From Ceratodon purpureus (Eukaryota > Streptophyta > Bryopsida > Pseudoditrichales > Ditrichaceae): a stretch of 64,000 bases of DNA. Below are positions 16,972 through 47,195 of the stretch, one piece after another (the stretch's first letter is position 1; every line of letters begins with the position of its first letter). The position numbers and the translations under genes are program-made. Where the stretch lies: NCBI GenBank assembly GCA_014871385.1, contig CM026428.1:13704041-13768040 (forward strand). The letters are read 5' to 3'. The notes under the pieces were generated by a model. That model did no database searches. It was not told the DNA's origin and worked only from the letters and a program-made list of their open reading frames with translations.

Positions 16972-17831
16972 CTGTATCAACACACCAAAATAAATGTCAT
17001 TCAGGAGCTTCATTCCAGCTTCACGAAAAAAAAAAGCAACCTAATATTCCATTCCTAAATTGTGTCATTAAAAATTCCTGGATCTCCAACGATAAGAACT
17101 ACTCCTATGGCAATCACAGGCTCATGTAAGCCAAAAATATTCTTCACCCGGTTCGAAAACTGCAATTCCAGATTAAAAAGAGTAGTAGAAGTTACCTTCT
17201 TCATGCAATTTTTTCAGCAACTGGGACTTGGTGGGCAACATGAACATGCCCGCACTCACAGCCTTGCGGAAGTCCAGGTATGATGCGGAGCAAACACTTG
17301 TTCATGGCTTTGGATGCGAGCTCCTTCAACGAATTCCCTCTGTCAACCCACGTTAACCCCTTGCATCAGCAAAACCTAACTTACAAAACAACATCGACCA
17401 GGCTTGAAACAGCTCCATTGTTGAATCGGAATGCAAGAATCAACTCAACGGAACGTAAAATGGCCAGTCCAGGTTTAAAATCAAATGCGAGAAATCCTCA
17501 ACACTTCTCACAGCATCCCCATGGAACCAGTTTGATGAACACAGCCAAAACCCTACTACACCCTCCTGCACAGCCAAAACCCTACTGCACCTGTTGGCAA
17601 TGAAGGAGGCTTAGGCCCAGTTTACACATGAACAGGGCCGGACCGGAAGGCTGTCCCGATTTGGGGACCTTCCAGCCCCCAATCGGGACTACCTTTCGGG
17701 TCTAGCCCAAGGGGTATGTAAACTCCTTAGGCCCAATTCTTGGGCCTATTTCTTGGACCCATTTCTTGGGCCCATTGCATCGGCCCATTACTTGGGCCTA
17801 GTTTATAAATTATTTATGATTTTGTATGGTT

Positions 17832-18568
17832 GGGGGGAAGCACAATAAAGTGTACCACAAAAGTGCTTAGCTCATTGCCAATTTCAGCCATTGTTGTAAA
17901 CACTAAAAAAAGTGACATATAATTTAATGATATGTTGGAAGGGGCTTTGGGTATAGAAAATAGACTCGGTCATCTTGAGTCTACGAAATTTTGGAACCGA
18001 TGTGTGCCTTTTACAAAGCCTTACAAGTCACGACAAGTGATCCAAAGTGAATGCTGTCATTTGAAGAAGTGGACAAAAAAGAGTACACAAATGTTAGAAA
18101 TCACTTTTGACTGCGTTGTACCCTCCGATTGTGAATTGTGGTTTCAAAAATGGGCCTAAGCAATTCCTTTGGAAGTTTGTATAGCTGAAAAGTTTCGTTG
18201 GGACGTTTTTGGGGAGCTGTTTTCGACGAAACTTTTTATGAGGTTTTTTTCACCGAACATTGTTTTTTAAATTGGAAAAAACATCCTCTAAAGACAATAA
18301 AGGGCCCTAAATGAAGAAATTAAGACTTTGGAAAAGTTCATTTTCATGATTTAGAACTAGCGGTCAAATTAAGTTTCAATTAAAGATGTTTTTTTATGGA
18401 GATGCCCGTAAGATACCTTGTGACACCTTAAAAAGTGAATGAAATGCTCAAAAACTACACCAAAATGCTCAAAATCAGCTTGGAGCAATAAAAAACAGCA
18501 CACTTCAAATTCACTTCCTAGTGATCACATGTTGCACTTTGTGGTACACTTTATTGTGCTCTCCCCCG
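17832..18568. mobile_element. TIR element nested inside the Harbinger-like element
   Basis: Ends read GCACAATAAAGTGTACCACA from about 17840 and the inverse TGTGGTACACTTTATTGTGC up to 18560. They are preceded by a G-run at the left and followed by a C-run at the right, and flanked by GTT at 17829-17831 and 18569-18571. About 737 bp. An internal 75-codon plus-strand frame has no recognisable domain. The TIR of about 30 bp is nearly perfect, so the element is fairly young. I assign no superfamily. Confidence 0.7.
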
Positions 18569-19671
18569 GTTTATAAATGTGAATTACTTTTTTTTTCTTG
18601 GTACGTTGTGTGAATGTATTATGAAAAAATAATTTTAAACATACTTTGAACCTGTATATTAAATTGTTAATGTTCGGTTTCATGTGGAAGTGGTCATTGT
18701 GAAGTAAAAATTGACATCTTTTTTTAGGAAAACAATGTATTTCTTTGTACATAACACTTGAAAAAAGAATGTAGTTTTACTCAAAAAATGTTTTTTTTTT
18801 TTTTGGGATGACTTTGCACTAGCTTTGCAGTCCATCTACAAATAATAATTTTTTCCATCACTATTCCAAACGAGCAAACATGAAATTTGGATGGTTTCTG
18901 GGACCTCTACCTTATAGATGCTACACTAAGCCAGTTACATGCTATGATAATTAAGCCACATTAAAGCATATGCATGCTCAAGAATAATCAAAGTTTTTCA
19001 AATGAGAATGTATTGATACTTTTTATTCAAAGTTAGAATCTGCCATTTAAGTATCACAAGTATAATGCTACAAACTTTATCCAAACTCGGAGAGGTCAAA
19101 GATAGGTGAGATATGTGCTCCGATCACAATAAAATATATAAAATTGAAAAGCTTGCAGTAAAATTTCGTACTTTAACTGCCAGCTCTTTCTTTTGCTGGT
19201 AGGTCTACAGGCTTCAAATTGATTAGATGACAACAATCAGGTAAAGGGTTCAACATTTACTTATGTCAATCAGAACCTACAATTCACATACAAAAAACCT
19301 CGTCCAAGGTTTTCTTGTTCCATATGCTCCACATCCTTCTTGTGCATCTTTACATGACCCCACAAGAAATTAAACTTTAGACACGTCCACTGAGTTGCAT
19401 ACTACACCTGCCTCGACAAACAGTCTGGTAATCCATACAGGCAACATTACCAAAACAGATCAACTCAAAAACCATCAGATGGGCCCAAATCAGACTGTAT
19501 TAATTGCCGCTTATCCACAGTTCATGACCTCACAAAAAGAGCTTCTGCATCTCAGAACCAACTGCTTATTCAGTACCACGCAATTGGGAAAATGGCAAAA
19601 TGGTTGTTATTATTTTCTATCTGTACAACTGTCAGTAAATCTCACCACCACCATGATACTGCCATTCAGCT

Positions 19672-20898
19672 CTAAACCAATGCACGGCGCTCAATGTAGG
19701 ATCCAGACAGTCCAGATGTTCCGAGAAGAGTGATCTGCATGCCAGTCAAATAATTCATCAGAACCTGAAGTATATATATTCACGATATGCAATGAAATCC
19801 TGTGCCAATGTGACAATATGGTTTAGCTACATAATTGCACAAATGAAGAACACATGAAATAATTTGGAAGTAATCTAGAAGAGAATGAGGTGTTCACCTT
19901 GGACCACTTGGGATCCAAGCCAGCAAGACGCTGCTTGATCTGCAGGAACAAGCCACCAAGCTCATTCTCCACCTTCTTCTTTATGTAAGCTTCATCCTCC
20001 TCAAATGAGTCAAGGTATGCGATGTACTTCTTGTAAGCAGCTTCGACAGCATTGTAAGTAGAGTCAGGAATTGGCTTGACATCCTGTAAATCACATCAAC
20101 ATGTCACAAGCTTAGTGAGAGTTCGGGGAATGAGAAGTGCATGAGGGTAAAGAGTAAGAGATAGTGCAAAATTGTAGAATGAAACCCTAACATAGACTGA
20201 CCTCTCCAGTGCCTCCACTCAAGTCGGTGATCTCCAGCAGAAGCTCCTGCAACATGTTTCCACCGAACTTCTCAACTGCCTCAGCTGCCCGCCATGCGTC
20301 TGTCAATGCCTCCTTCCCCACAACATCGTCACTGCTGCTCTTGAGGCTCGCTTCCACCGCCTCCCTAACTGATGGTTCTACTTTGGTCCAGTTGGCGCCC
20401 AAGAGCGCATGCAGAGCCTTCAGAATACCACCGTCCTTGATGTCTGGCAAGGCGCTCAAATCGGAGCTCATGTACCGAACTTGGGATGGGAATTCACCAT
20501 ACCCAAATTTCAGAGCAGAATCTAACAATTGACAACATATACTAACGCCACTTTGTCAATCTCTCTCAAGTCTCAACCTCCCAAACCCTCCCTCCCCTCA
20601 AAGTTCTAGAGGCTGGTTGCCCATAACTGCACTATTCACAATGACTTGTGCACATACCCATCTATCAAAACAGCCCAAGCATTAAGTGAGAAACATTACT
20701 GAATAATTCCGATGCAGGTGACAAAGAGGGAAATCCTTGAGAGCTCGAATTGTTGCAGCAATGCTGAGAAGATGGAAATCCTTCTGAGCTCGAATTGTTG
20801 CAGCAACGCAGACAAGAGACAGGAGAGAAGAGAGAAAGTAATGGAGGGTGGGGATTTGAAGGATCCAACGGAGGTGCACAATCGGGTCCAAGTTTCAT
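19672..20898 (-). CDS. SDH5: Succinate dehydrogenase subunit 5 (plant-specific complex II subunit)
   Basis: Exons (minus): 20898-20700, 20521-20202, 20083-19898 and 19734-19672, ending TAG. They total 768 bp, or 255 residues, with consensus splice sites and matching phases (1, 0, 0). Exons 2-4 match plant SDH5: ALPDIKDGGILKALHALLGA, AWRAAEAVEKFGGNM, YIAYLDSFEEDEAYIKKKVE and LGTSGLSGSY near the C-terminus. SDH5 is a plant-specific subunit of mitochondrial respiratory complex II (succinate:ubiquinone oxidoreductase). Its exact role in the complex is not settled. Exon 1 is inferred: it joins in frame and is rich in Ser, Pro and Cys with few Arg, a weak mitochondrial presequence, and it holds an in-frame 45-bp tandem duplication (20729-20818). 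The gene lies wholly within the transposon at 17614-21119 and keeps its introns, so it was captured as DNA. No frame break is visible; expression is unknown. Confidence 0.87.
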
Positions 20899-21529
20899 CT
20901 TCGGGCCACGGAAAACCTTGCCCCGATTGCACCACTTGGGCCCAAAGATTTGGCGCCAAAATACTGCCACATAAGCTGCCATGTAGGATATGGTGATGCT
21001 TGGGACGGGCCCTAGTATAAAACCCTTGGGCCCGATTTGAGAGAATGGAGCAATTCTATTGGTTGAAAAGTGGGGAGTTCGGGCCGGCCCTCAATCGGGA
21101 CCCATGTGTAAACTGGGCCTTACTCGGTGACAAGTATGTGCTCGAACAACACCCTTACCATGTCCACACCTCGCAGCACTCGCAGCAGATTTCGTGTATG
21201 GCTTCCCCCATTTTGTACGGTATCGTTTCTTATGTCTTGGCCTATCATAGCCGTCAATGTCTCATATTCCTTCGCTGCTCCACACAAATCATGCACCTGC
21301 AGGACCATAAAAAGCATGAAATTACCTCTCCGGCCTAGCAATTCTTCCTGTTCGAATCCTCAACGGGTCAGGTGCAGACTCGTTAAGAGAATGTTGACCT
21401 GTCGGTGGAGCCCATGTGAAAATCAAGTCAGAAATATAGCGGATCGCCAAAACGCTGAGGAGGGCAAAATGACGGCAATCCCACTCACTTTGGCAACGTA
21501 CCGGCAGTCCTTCTCCGCAAACAATTAAT

Positions 21530-22760
21530 TCATCTCCAAAAATAATAAATATTAATCTTTTTGGGTCCGTATTCTCTATGTTCCCCGATCTGTGTGTATT
21601 TTTTCAAACCAACATACTATTAAACCAGCAAAAAGCCTCTAATATTGGCCATATGAGGTGATGTTGCTTTATGTGGTGTTCAGTACCTCTTGATGTTACT
21701 TTTTGAACTACCTAACCAATTTTGCACTTTAACCCTAAAGCATCAACTCAAACAATTATTTGGTTGATTTTGAGTTCCCTATAAGTCAATTTTTATAGGA
21801 TGAAGCTCTAATTTTGGCACAAAATAGATGATTATCATGTTTTTCTAACAAGACCATTCATGTTTCAAAATTCCTTATACTTTAGGAGATATTTGCTGTC
21901 AAAGTTTCAAAACATTGTGAGGGCATCCTGAAATCTGTCCAAAATTGCAATATTCTGTCTAAAATTAATTAAATTACATAAATTTCAAAAATTCACCAAA
22001 AATTGAGATTTTACTTTATTTCTATTTTTTAATTTCTTTTAGATGTAAATGAAATTTGAAGGCATGATCACACCACTGGCATTTTCAATCCAATATTTCT
22101 TTATATGCCCTTTTTACTATCATAATCAGGCCTTTGTTTTTGAATTTCAACATACCTTTATATGAAAGATCAAGCATATATTTAGGTTTTATAAATCGTA
22201 TGAAGGGAAAAAGTGCATGGACATATCCTAACAACCCTAAGTACAAGAACTATTAGAGCGCCACATAAAATCTACTTTTGGAATTTGTTTTTTTTGGCTC
22301 ACAAATCACTTGAAATCCGTTTTGCAAGAAGGAAAAAAAACTTTTATTCCAAATTTGAACATATGATCTCACAAACAGTAAGGATTCTGAATCTAAGATT
22401 TGAGGTACATATACATGTACAAGTAAGGTACTAGATCTTACGGTTATTCTCCTCAAAATACATCAAAACTTAAAAACTTACACTATATTGAAAGAGTTTT
22501 GAGGGTTTTTGGCAGTTTGGAGGCTTTTCAACTTTAACCCCTAAAGGACAAAGTGGCAAAATCGGGCCTTTTTAGAGTTTGGGCATGTACTTGTGACTTC
22601 AATTTCAATCGATATTTTTTGAGACTAATTCTGAATTTTTGCTGTAACAAAGACTTTTAGGGAATGTAATTTTTTTTTTCAATAAGACATTTTAAAAAAT
22701 GGTTATGGTACACAAAGTGGAATTTTGTGTTCGGTGGACAATCTGGGCAGCCATACTAAA
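21530..22760. repeat. Dispersed AT-rich repeat that truncates the ACD11-like gene
   Basis: 21540-21690 resembles 38220-38370 (TATTCTCTATG, GTGTGTATTTTTT). 21770-22150 resembles 30150-30490 (CAAGACCATTCATGTTTC/CAAGACTATTTAAGTTTC, GGAGATATTTGC, TTCACCAAAAA, GGCATGATC). The homology to ACD11-like exon sequence stops at about 21525, just where this repeat starts, so the repeat replaced the 5' part of the gene. No coding content seen. Confidence 0.6.
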
Positions 22761-43152: not shown

Positions 43153-46100
43153 CTACCGGCCCCGCTGTAGCTTCAAGGTCAGCTCCCGAACAGTTGACAC
43201 GATCCGAGAAAACTCAAAAAACATGTTTGAGTGCTTGCCATCCAGCCCTGTACGAGAGCACCTGTTGTTCCCAGTCAGGTTGTTGCATGGGCTGCCTCCC
43301 ACAATCAGATCAAAACCCTGGTACTTGCACACAAGGTCGAGAAGGACCTCTCTGGTGAGGTGTCGCACATCGTGGTAATCAATGTCCAGAATCCCGGTTT
43401 GCTTCGATGATCCCCACCAAGCCTGGAAGATACGCCGTGGCTCCTTCTCGATCTCAACGCTCACCACAGCGGTCAGCTTGATCCCAACCTTGTGCAGGGC
43501 TACTTCGGCCCCTCCAATACCCGTGAACAGGGACAGAACCTTGATACCATTCGGGTACAGCGGTTTCAGAACCGAGAAGTGGTACGCCACAACGTACACG
43601 GAGAAGCTGTTCCCGAGTGCCTTGTATTTGGCTTGGTTGCCGAGGCAGGGTCTCGAGTGGTCACGATCGAAGCCCAGCATAGCCTGCGATTGTCGCCACC
43701 ACACAAATCTGTTAAACTCATAGATTCAAAGCTTTCAATCTATGGTATCTGCAGTGGAACAACTGAAACCTCCGGAGTGCACATCAAACAGTACTCACGG
43801 ATCTTTAGATATAGTAACTCTGTTCAGGTCACTCACTGGTCACCTAAAGTTCACGTAATCTAAGTACCTCAATCTCGTTGGCCTCAACGGGAGTTGCCAG
43901 GTTTGGTGAGGTCCAAACAAGGTTCCACTTCGAGCAGAGACGCACCAAGTCCTTCTTCTGCTCATCTGAGAGATTGGGCTCTAGAATTGCACTCCCATCC
44001 GCTACCCCTTGTTGTTTTGCACAGTACTCGCTGCCTCGGACAGTATTGATACAATTCAACTTCGTCCGGTTGTCCCACTCTGGAAAATCACAGAGTATTC
44101 AAATCAAGACACACAACTTCCTCAATCGAACAAAATATCGGAGCACATAACCATCACCATTAACTATAACAATCAACAATATACCTGGCCAAAACGGTTT
44201 GGTCTGGGGGAGCAGCTCCTTGATGGTCATCGGAGGATCTTTGATCATCTTCTTCCTCCCTTCAATTGGCAGGTTGTGTATGTAACCACGAGAACGCCGA
44301 CAGGTGGAGAAGTACATCGCATCTACAAACTCCGGCGCAATGTCGAAAAGATGAGCTTGAATCCTGCTCCACGCACCCTGTGGCATGCTTGCGACATTCT
44401 CAAAGTAGAAGAAGGGAGCTCCTTTCACATCCTCCTTCAAGTGGCGTGACTGCAACGGCATGCCTGGGAGCCCAAACCCAGTCGCCCCCCTATTCCTGAT
44501 CATAGGGAGTCTACAATCCAAGGACAGTTTTAATGTCAGCCACAGATAGCAGCACTCAAACAACAAGCGTTACACCCAACAGATGCCACAAAACCGTAAT
44601 GCTCTAAGCACACAAAACCTGAAGTATTCGCGCTCTTAACCGGCAACGTAAATAACGAAAATAATAATGTACATAGATTTATGTCCGATGTATAAGCCAG
44701 TGCCAGAGATAGAAATCGTACTTCATGAACTTTGCAGGCGATTTCTTCACAGTATTAAGACTTCCCTTTGGACGACCTCTTTGCGCAGGAAGTTTGCCCT
44801 TCCCCATCAAAGGACTCTCAGGCTTACGCTTACCGCCCATGTTGGAGGCGCCCTTTCCTTTTCCTTCAGTAGGAGAGTTCCAATACAGGAATCCCTCCTC
44901 GACGTCACTTTCTTCCCCGCCGTGAACAGAATCATCCTCATCAGAGTCATCAGAGTCGGGAAGAGTGATCGCATCTTCCTGAATATCATGTCACAGCAGA
45001 CCATTATCAAACCCGGATTCATAAGATCCCACACTCTCAAGCCCTTTCAGTAGAAACTTCCCCCAAAAGAGAATCTCCATTGCAACCAGTTCAGTCCCAA
45101 TTACACCCAACAACGAGAGCAGTTCTGGGAAAATCCAATCGACGTTGACGTACCTCAATCAAGTTGTCCATATGGGCAGCGAGAAAATCAACCACTTCTA
45201 CCATATCATCCTGAGTGGCGTTTAACAAAGGAGTGTCTGCAAACCCCCCCAGCAAGACATCAGGAAGTACAAAAAATGCTTAAAATAAACTCATACATCA
45301 GACTGGCAATTACAAGCTTTGGAAGTTTAAAGAGACTTACTACATCTGCTCATGGCCTTTTCAACTGCTGCAGTGGGAAACTGAAACTCTGTGGTCAGCT
45401 TCTGCAGAGTACTGATATCGCCATCCATAAGCAATGTTGGTGCTTCTTGCTCCTGCGTGGACATGTACAGCAGGTACTCCGTGAGCATGTCGGGCTCTAC
45501 TCCTTCCCCAAGCTCCTGTATGGCTCTCTCCACCAGTTCAGGTAAGAATCCAAGATTGTACATGGAAACCCGGAGGCCTTCGTTTGCTAGGTCCACAGAA
45601 TTCGATGGACCTTCTCCCCAGTCGACGTTGCATGGAGTCCTTGCTGGGATTTCAGCGTCAGAATCGGAACTGACCTCGTCCTGACATATCCAAATTATGG
45701 TTTAGAATTCGAATCACAATAGCTAGAATTTAACAGATACAAATATCGCCATTGCTATGAAAGATCCAGAAACATTCAATAAGTGCAATGACACACTCAC
45801 AGTTAGCATTCTTGCGGGTGCCTTCAAAGATGGTCCAGACGCAAGGTTTGGTAAAATCCGAGCCCGCATTTCGGCTATGTCATCTCCCTCTTCTCCATTG
45901 TCCTCTTCGCTCTCTTCTTCGCTCTGTTCTTCGTTCTCTTGATGAGCCATTACCGAGTTGTCCTCGTCAACATGCTGAGGCACCCCCAAGTTGTCGTCCC
46001 CATGCTGAGGCGCCCCCAAGTTGTCGTCGACATGCTGAGGCACCCCCAAGTTGTCGATGACATGCTGAGGTACCTCCTTGTAGTCAAGGATGAACTGCAG

Positions 46101-47195
46101 CAATGCTGAGTCATCTGCGTCTGCGCCTGCAACACGAAGCAAAGAAATTTTTTAGAAGAAGCCTACGGGAAATGAAGAAAGAATACAAAACCAAACAAAA
46201 ACCTTCACATATGGCGAAGTAAATCACTCACCCCGTTGCTTAAAGGCATGATCCACAAGTTCGGTGGAAAAACCCATATCCCGGAAACGCGCCTGTCGAG
46301 CTGAAGGGGATAGTGGAGGTGATGGACGTACTAGAGGAGCCGAAGGCACATCCGGAAGTGGCTCATCTGGAAGTGTTGGTGTAGTTGGAGGAGTGGCAGA
46401 AGGTTCCAACTCTTTCTTGATGGGTCTGTTTAACTGGTACGAGCAACTAGCCCCTGCATCCACCTTCTGATTCACCTTTGCTCGAGGTACTGAGCCCGGC
46501 TCAGCTTTCACTGCTTTCATCTCCTCTTGAACTGAGTCTCCTGCGGCCCGGGAGCTTTCACCTTCATGACGGGTCACAGTATGGTTCTCAGGAACAGGAG
46601 ATTTCTTGAATAGCTTGCAAATGGGATCCTCCCACTGCTCCTCTTCCGCTGCCCCATTTCTCTCCAGCTCTTCGTCACTTGATACCATGTCCTGCAAGCA
46701 CACACGATTGTTTATTTTTAAAATGTCACAAAAAAAACTCTCTTTCAGGCTCATACTAAGAAGGTGAAAGGGCGTTCAGGTTGTTCTCACGTCTGAGAGG
46801 TGCTCTTCGATGCACTCCACTTGCGGAACTAGAGGGTTAGGCAGGCTGATTGCGTAATCAGCAATCCTCTCGATATCGCCCTCAAACTCTGATATCTTCT
46901 GCAGCGCCTGGTCGATCACCTCCGGTGGCAACAGCAGCAGCTCACCCAAAACCTCTCGAACCTGCTTGACTTTTATGCTTGCAAGCTAAACCAAACAAAC
47001 ATACTAGTCAGAACCAATACGTTAAAGCAAGATTAGCTTAAACTAATTTTCATCAGTTCGAAGAAAAGAACATAATGAGAAGACTATGTGTTTAACTAAA
47101 CTTTCTTGGACACAAACAGTCGATATGTAAGCGGCAAACTACGAAACTACCTCCTCCATGGTCGTTTCCTCCTTTACCGATGCTCCGAAACTCAT
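43153..47195 (-). CDS. DRM: Domains rearranged DNA (cytosine-5) methyltransferase (DRM), complete
   Basis: Ten exons on the minus strand: 47195-47151, 46985-46791, 46691-46232, 46126-45801, 45680-45341, 45236-45154, 44978-44722, 44510-44185, 44079-43868 and 43683-43153 (stop TAG). They total 2775 bp, or 924 residues, with GT-AG junctions and matching phases throughout. DRM enzymes perform RNA-directed de novo cytosine methylation in the nucleus. UBA domains lie at about 210-254 (FRDMGFSTELVDHAFKQRG), 378-415 (LGFLPELVERAIQELGEGV) and 432-480. The catalytic half shows the rearranged order: ENV motif (FFYFENVASMP, about 602-612), then motif X (KYKALGNSFSV, 767-777), motif I (LSLFTGIGGAE, 798-808), motif II (VVSVEIE) and motif IV (GGSPCNNLTG) with the catalytic Cys at 881, so activity is expected. 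It is longer than the 600-odd residues usual in flowering plants, because of N-terminal exons 2-3 and a 10-residue repeat in exon 4. Confidence 0.95.
45965..46085 (-). repeat. 30-bp in-frame tandem repeat within the DRM gene
   Basis: Exon 4 encodes four 10-residue units of the form VPQHVDDNLG (VPQHVIDNLG, VPQHVDDNLG, APQHGDDNLG, VPQHVDEDNS), right after the first UBA domain and before a Glu-rich linker. Being a multiple of three, copy-number change would not break the frame. The left DRM gene lacks this exon. Confidence 0.9.

Follow-up and report, generated by a model that had tools for sequence, protein, structure and literature searches.

The subject of this analysis is a 64-kb stretch of the moss Ceratodon purpureus (the window; C8:13704041-13768040 of the 362-Mb assembly, where C numbers denote contigs), and within it a 3506-bp unit at 17614-21119 that carries a piece of the nuclear gene SDH5. 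From left to right, the unit is composed of a left arm, the SDH5 piece, another captured fragment (X), and a right arm (Table 1). We interpret the unit as a non-autonomous Pack-type PIF/Harbinger transposon, which was mobilised after it had captured SDH5 sequence, and we put the probability of this reading at about 0.95. An earlier note, made from the letters of the window alone, had proposed that a Harbinger-like transposon mobilised a whole SDH5 gene, introns included. The capture and mobilisation of SDH5 with introns were borne out, with a donor on C9 and loaded copies on C8 and C12; the wholeness of the gene was not.

Boundaries and insertion of the element

The two ends of the unit are exact reverse complements of each other over 17 bp, and TTA lies directly outside each of them, as the earlier note had seen. 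When the whole window was searched for this terminal inverted repeat (TIR) at up to 3 mismatches, the two ends were the sole 2 matches, compared to 0.17 expected, and 2 matches were obtained in none of 100 shuffles. Relatives of the flanks were found at C8:115.9 kb (97% for the right flank and 87% for the left) and at C2:1.493 Mb (85% and 82%, respectively). Since the flanks are continuous at both of these related empty sites, with a single TTA where the window has TTA-element-TTA, the 3506-bp unit entered as one block. It is thus a single transposon, apart from a nested element described below.

A second loaded copy of 2769 bp is present on C12 (L009:3549-6317, where L numbers denote fetched stretches of the genome). 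It has perfect ends and agrees with the window copy in its SDH5 piece and its junctions. Its flanks are different, with a TTA on each side of its own, and the nested element is missing from it. The two cargoes differ at 6 of 1717 bases. Because the C12 copy shares cargo and junctions and has its own TTA flanks, the SDH5-loaded element has moved. The SDH5 loci reported here, the two loaded copies included, come from the best 40 of 74 candidates.

The layout itself, and no other finding, would agree with two separate miniature inverted-repeat transposable elements (MITEs) that bracket an ordinary chromosomal SDH5. The earlier note had stated that capture would be wrong if this were the only SDH5 of the genome and the ends belonged to two such elements. 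However, a separate SDH5 with exon 1 is located on C9, the ends form one unit that occurs in a second loaded copy, and two empty sites lack the whole unit. Bracketing by two MITEs is extremely improbable.

The SDH5 cargo and its donor

A Pfam SDH5_plant match (E 1.7e-55) was found between the ends, and three SDH5 exons (2-4) have GT/AG borders and an open frame, as in the donor. A parental SDH5 locus, which the earlier note had suggested looking for, was located on C9 (L010), and it differs from the window cargo at 8 of 1716 aligned bases and by 3 indels. Among proteins, the SDH5 frame was matched best by Ceratodon purpureus KC19_8G161900 (100% over 172 residues), annotated as SDH5 and taken as the gene on C9. 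The window and donor proteins are identical over residues 60-231, and the captured part shows 0 differences in the coding sequence; the C12 copy has one Val-to-Leu change. Two other relatives were considered as the donor and rejected. The one on C5 (L011) differs from the window at 74 of 1713 bases, and the one on C3 (L012) is interrupted and reaches 94-96%. Homology between the C5 relative (C5:10.32 Mb) and C9 ends just within intron 1; tblastn found no exon 1 in 9 kb of C5 sequence, and its exons correspond to a 198-aa protein (P0002) of another Ceratodon assembly. The C3 relative (C3:3.53 Mb) is broken up by approximately 560 bp. In the PDB, SDH5 had sequence matches to three designed proteins, none with a stretch that passed by itself, and they were dropped.

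The cargo begins inside exon 2. The first approximately 35 bases of this exon are left out together with exon 1, which in the donor (L010:2335-2454) encodes an Arg-rich presequence with 7 Arg and 0 acidic residues among the first 40. Donor exon 1 was not found by tblastn in window 17001-22000 or in L009. The element therefore lacks the mitochondrial presequence exon of a complete SDH5, and the whole nuclear gene of the earlier note is reduced to a fragment. Because exon 1 and everything upstream of about 35 bases into exon 2 are absent, the cargo as it stands would not yield a normally targeted mitochondrial protein. Exons 2-4 are indeed without a frame break, as the earlier note had seen. Nevertheless, the open frame says little, because the captured coding sequence is the same in window and donor; it can be explained by the recency of the capture, and the zero differences likewise say nothing on selection on the cargo.

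The earlier note had listed four splice-consistent SDH5 exons, of which a partial exon 2 and exons 3 and 4 were recovered; its 'exon 1' is right-arm DNA, which also occurs in sister elements without SDH5. The ATG of this 'exon 1' is present in 16 of the 16 right arms compared (14/14 without SDH5), the open length from it ranges from 47 to 126 codons, L016 has a frame shift, and the acceptor sits in fragment X; the DNA around it, 20499-20634, has a match elsewhere, at an unrelated C9 location. At the DNA level, most right arms share 95-99% identity (89% for L022 and 82% for L027), so the open stretch in them is weak evidence. For residues 1-80 of the joined product, 0 of 25 candidates reached E <= 0.001 in a database clustered at 90%, where an element-encoded protein would be hidden if it shared the donor's 6-member cluster. 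The chimeric exon 1 was thus rejected as coding on the ATG common to SDH5-free arms, the frame shift in L016 and the lack of a protein match.

It was also considered whether the right arm drives an N-truncated SDH5 (172 aa from the ATG at 20471) or a chimeric one, as a functional transposon-borne gene. The intact frame, the same as donor residues 60-231, would agree with this, as would the sense orientation of SDH5 behind the arm from which a Myb-like open reading frame (ORF) of relatives reads inward. However, neither the upstream region nor the presequence was captured, the first 40 residues of the chimera hold 2 R+K and 3 D+E compared to 7 and 0 in the donor, its first 80 found no match as described above, and the C12 copy carries the Val-to-Leu change. 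We regard a functional gene as unlikely. Slightly more doubtful still is a scenario in which the family takes up unlinked host DNA step by step, with repair templates: an X-bearing member gained SDH5 by break repair and the right arm became the promoter of an intact, presequence-less SDH5; if true, a complex II subunit would be disseminated in the form of a protein that is cytosolic or retargeted. Because it is without its own upstream region and presequence, the SDH5 piece would now be mostly passenger DNA.

The transposon family

A genome search for the TIR, another step proposed in the earlier note, yielded sister elements both with SDH5 (on C12) and without it. TWA followed by the first 14 TIR bases occurred at 37 genome sites (17 forward and 20 reverse), and the reversed control pattern at 0. 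Among the 20 stretches of the first fetch, with TIRs called at <=3 mismatches, both ends were present in 10, one end in 5 (L013, L014, L015, L022, L024), and no family end in 5 (L010, L011, L012, L026, L027). Identical 3-bp flanks border 9 of the 10 two-ended elements (6 TTA, 2 TAA, 1 TGA), and those of L023 are non-identical. The arms match among sister elements while the interiors differ; the identity of the outer left arm is 94-98% in 8 of the 11 stretches that hold it and 91, 89 and 83%, with small gaps, in the other 3.

Inside three large units with family arms, a DDE_Tnp_4 transposase was found (PF13359, E 4e-32). In the C6 unit, the N-terminal transposase sequence sits with the left arm approximately 9-10 kb off, and the gene looks interrupted. 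PF13359 matches are common in the genome (150 scored of 596 candidates), too common to connect the family with a transposase alone; the connection is made because the left arm runs into transposase sequence. Positions 755-1091 of L016 match L029 as well as L043/L044, and the window element has no match to the transposase stretches L042-L044. In the control set of the family search, a match was obtained in 1 of 14 named genomes. The Myb-like ORF in L014 and L015 reads inward from the right arm, which is the direction of SDH5 in the window, and in L014, where the ORF is partial, the Myb_DNA-bind_4 match (E 1.9e-6, 28.6 bits) is over the Pfam cut-off of 27.

The family thus shows 3-bp duplications that are mostly TTA/TAA, a transposase together with a Myb-like protein, and short TIRs and arms that the window element shares with its transposase-bearing relatives; the Harbinger-like identity given in the earlier note is upheld. 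As for the Pack-TYPE character, the element is non-autonomous, holds a host gene between family ends, and moved after capture. From the shared ends, we infer that a transposase made by relatives would act in trans on the ends of the element.

Other members carry host DNA as well. The interior of L028 (C12:5.222 Mb) has one other place in the genome, at 95%, overlapping a ribosomal L7Ae/S12e-family ORF on C11, which we take to be ribosomal S12. The interior of L018 matches a single other region, at 95% on C9 (C9:5265779-5266622), next to which lies a 72% piece. One other place each was therefore found for 2 of the 2 further sister cargoes with a search answer. With matches located for four captured pieces (SDH5, X, L028 and L018), the capture of host DNA is judged to be recurrent in this family.

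Fragment X, the order of events and the capture step

The source of X is located at C9:5.371 Mb, approximately 1 kb upstream of ORFs with the protein domains TIR and NB-ARC. The window keeps only 144 bp of X beside the right arm, ending where SDH5 starts (5 mismatches and 1 gap in 147 bases against the source), and a 16-kb relative on C6 (L013, C6:35.16 Mb) holds 374 bp of X adjoining the same right arm (18 mismatches and 1 gap in 377). In this C6 relative, X adjoins an extra 34-bp left-arm piece (around positions 490-523), which is also still present in its own left arm. A further 0.7 kb or so of DNA lies beside X and the 34-bp piece in L013, and the contig, of 110 Mb, is presumably the V sex chromosome.

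The substitutions in the cargo were polarised with the C5 paralogue as the outgroup. The six that part both element copies from C9 are all C9-side changes, plus two indels; 2 are private to the window and 3 to C12, 1 site is ambiguous (18830), and 0 are common to both copies yet absent from C9 and C5. Since no cargo substitution is common to both copies alone, the capture and the copying to a second place were probably close in time. The divergence from the donors, together with the nested element present in the window only, suggests a layered history, in which X would have come first, followed by SDH5 and then by movement, with the nested insertion last and in the window copy only.

At the left junction, TTA is common to the family, the donor and the window, and at the right junction AAT is common to the donor, X and the window. 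We propose that SDH5 may have been copied in during gap or break repair of an X-bearing element, the repair template switching at these two 3-bp matches and the C9 donor staying in place. Capture by such templated repair is the account we favour, and we hold it to be reasonably probable, because of the short matches at both junctions, the kept donor, and the extra 34-bp left-arm copy by X in C6. As for the capture step alone, two family insertions flanking the C9 SDH5 body might instead have been deprived of the ends that faced each other and have moved off together, as a composite element enclosing the gene piece. Such fusion predicts the observed order of left arm, host DNA and right arm, and Gisby and Catoni 2022 put it forward for Pack-TYPE elements, Pack-PIF among them (PMC8903248), a model also proposed for Pack-CACTA. 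However, no TIR was found at <=3 mismatches in 8 kb around the C9 donor, the donor gene is still there, and the 34-bp piece joined to X on C6 is also kept in its own left arm, as templated repair expects. These points are compatible with fusion followed by later changes, and fusion is a real, if lesser, possibility, with little probability left for any other route.

Several points weigh against the interpretation as a whole. Transposition itself was not observed. Between the two loaded copies, the arms diverge more (10 substitutions in approximately 1050 bases) than the cargo does, which one clean round of copying does not predict; sequence exchange with sister elements may account for it. The left arm of the window has 15 mismatches in 428 bases to the X-bearing C6 relative and 12 in 415 to L021, a comparison that does not decide between repair and fusion, and the layout fits both alike. 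Only parts of the interior sequence of the transposase units on C13, C8 and C6 were read, and the Myb_DNA-bind_4 match in the partial ORF of L015 is under the cut-off (E 5.3e-4; 20.8 vs 27 bits).

Other features of the element and the window

The left arm of the window copy is split by a nested 736-bp transposon, which the earlier note did not mention. Its 30-bp ends are 93% complementary, and the 4-bp GGTT is found at 17828-17831 and 18568-18571; relatives are present in L016 (94%) and L027 (89%). In the right arm, 20724-20813 is a 45-bp tandem duplication, with apparently one more copy in L020 and one fewer in L022. Elsewhere in the window, the minus strand at 43153-43725 holds part of a gene for a C-5 cytosine methyltransferase (DNA_methylase, E 2.4e-14), presumably one of the plant DRM type. 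The adjoining ORFs at 44099-44569 and 46224-46775 have no Pfam match.

Table 1. Positions of the element's parts in the window and of the related transposase units
Feature	Position	Strand	Remarks
Target site duplication TTA, left	17611..17613	.	both related empty sites have one TTA
Left TIR, GGCCCAGTTTACACATG	17614..17630	+	
Left arm, outer part, family sequence	17614..17831	+	found in 11 fetched stretches
Nested 736-bp TIR transposon, unrelated	17832..18567	.	GGTT duplication
Left arm, inner part	18568..18779	+	3-bp TTA overlap with donor DNA at inner end
Captured SDH5 fragment	18777..20493	-	donor C9 (L010); partial exon 2, intron 2, exon 3, intron 3, exon 4, ~0.9 kb past stop codon
SDH5 exon 4 with stop	19672..19734	-	
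SDH5 exon 3	19898..20083	-	
SDH5 exon 2, 3' part	20202..20493	-	first in-frame ATG of cargo at 20471
Captured fragment X	20491..20634	.	94.6% over 147 bases to L026 (C9:5.371 Mb)
Right arm	20634..21119	+	
'Exon 1' of the earlier note, right-arm sequence, not SDH5	20700..20898	-	
Right TIR	21103..21119	-	
Target site duplication TTA, right	21120..21122	.	
Transposase unit on C13	C13:3091255-3103055		11.8 kb; 489-aa open frame
Transposase unit on C8	C8:302694-310610		7.9 kb; frame broken by stop
Transposase unit on C6	C6:35161136-35177303		16.2 kb; 319-aa frame only

Comparison with known systems

Pack-MULEs, like the moss element, capture and move pieces of host genes; unlike it, they belong to another transposase superfamily and have longer TIRs and 9-bp duplications. 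Ceratodon purpureus is a haploid moss that can be cultivated. In the titles and abstract starts of the non-subscription literature on bryophyte gene capture, Pack elements and Ceratodon transposons, no report of a Pack-PIF in a moss was found. Neither moss nor Physcomitr occurs as a word in PMC8903248, and neither moss nor bryophyt in PMC13317346.

Gene capture by PIF/Harbinger elements is already published for grapevine (PMC2528002) and for maize and rice (PMC8903248). As described in the latter, the Pack-PIF elements of maize and rice share with the moss element the non-autonomous PIF/Harbinger ends, the TTA/TAA duplications, the pieces of host genes and the presence of several copies. The gene pieces given there for Pack-PIF cluster 18 are 163 and 58 bp, whereas the moss element has 1.72 kb with two introns, a donor only 8/1716 apart, and an X-bearing relative. 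The grapevine Pifvine-3 (PMC2528002) likewise carries host exons and introns, sometimes in several copies, and shares TTA/TAA flanks as well as ORF1 and a transposase in the family; however, the host DNA there makes up a long 5' region of the elements, whereas that of the moss element replaces the coding interior. A 2026 review states that DNA transposons might take up fragments of unlinked DNA by a mechanism that is still to be discovered (PMC13317346). Several items that are usually missing can be seen in the present family: one donor is nearly identical and a second, older one has been located, one relative has the first capture only, and there are empty sites, two loaded copies and relatives with a transposase. 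Compared with the published cases, the cargo is unusual in its length, its introns and its close agreement with the donor, and so are the occurrence in a moss and the successive intermediates.

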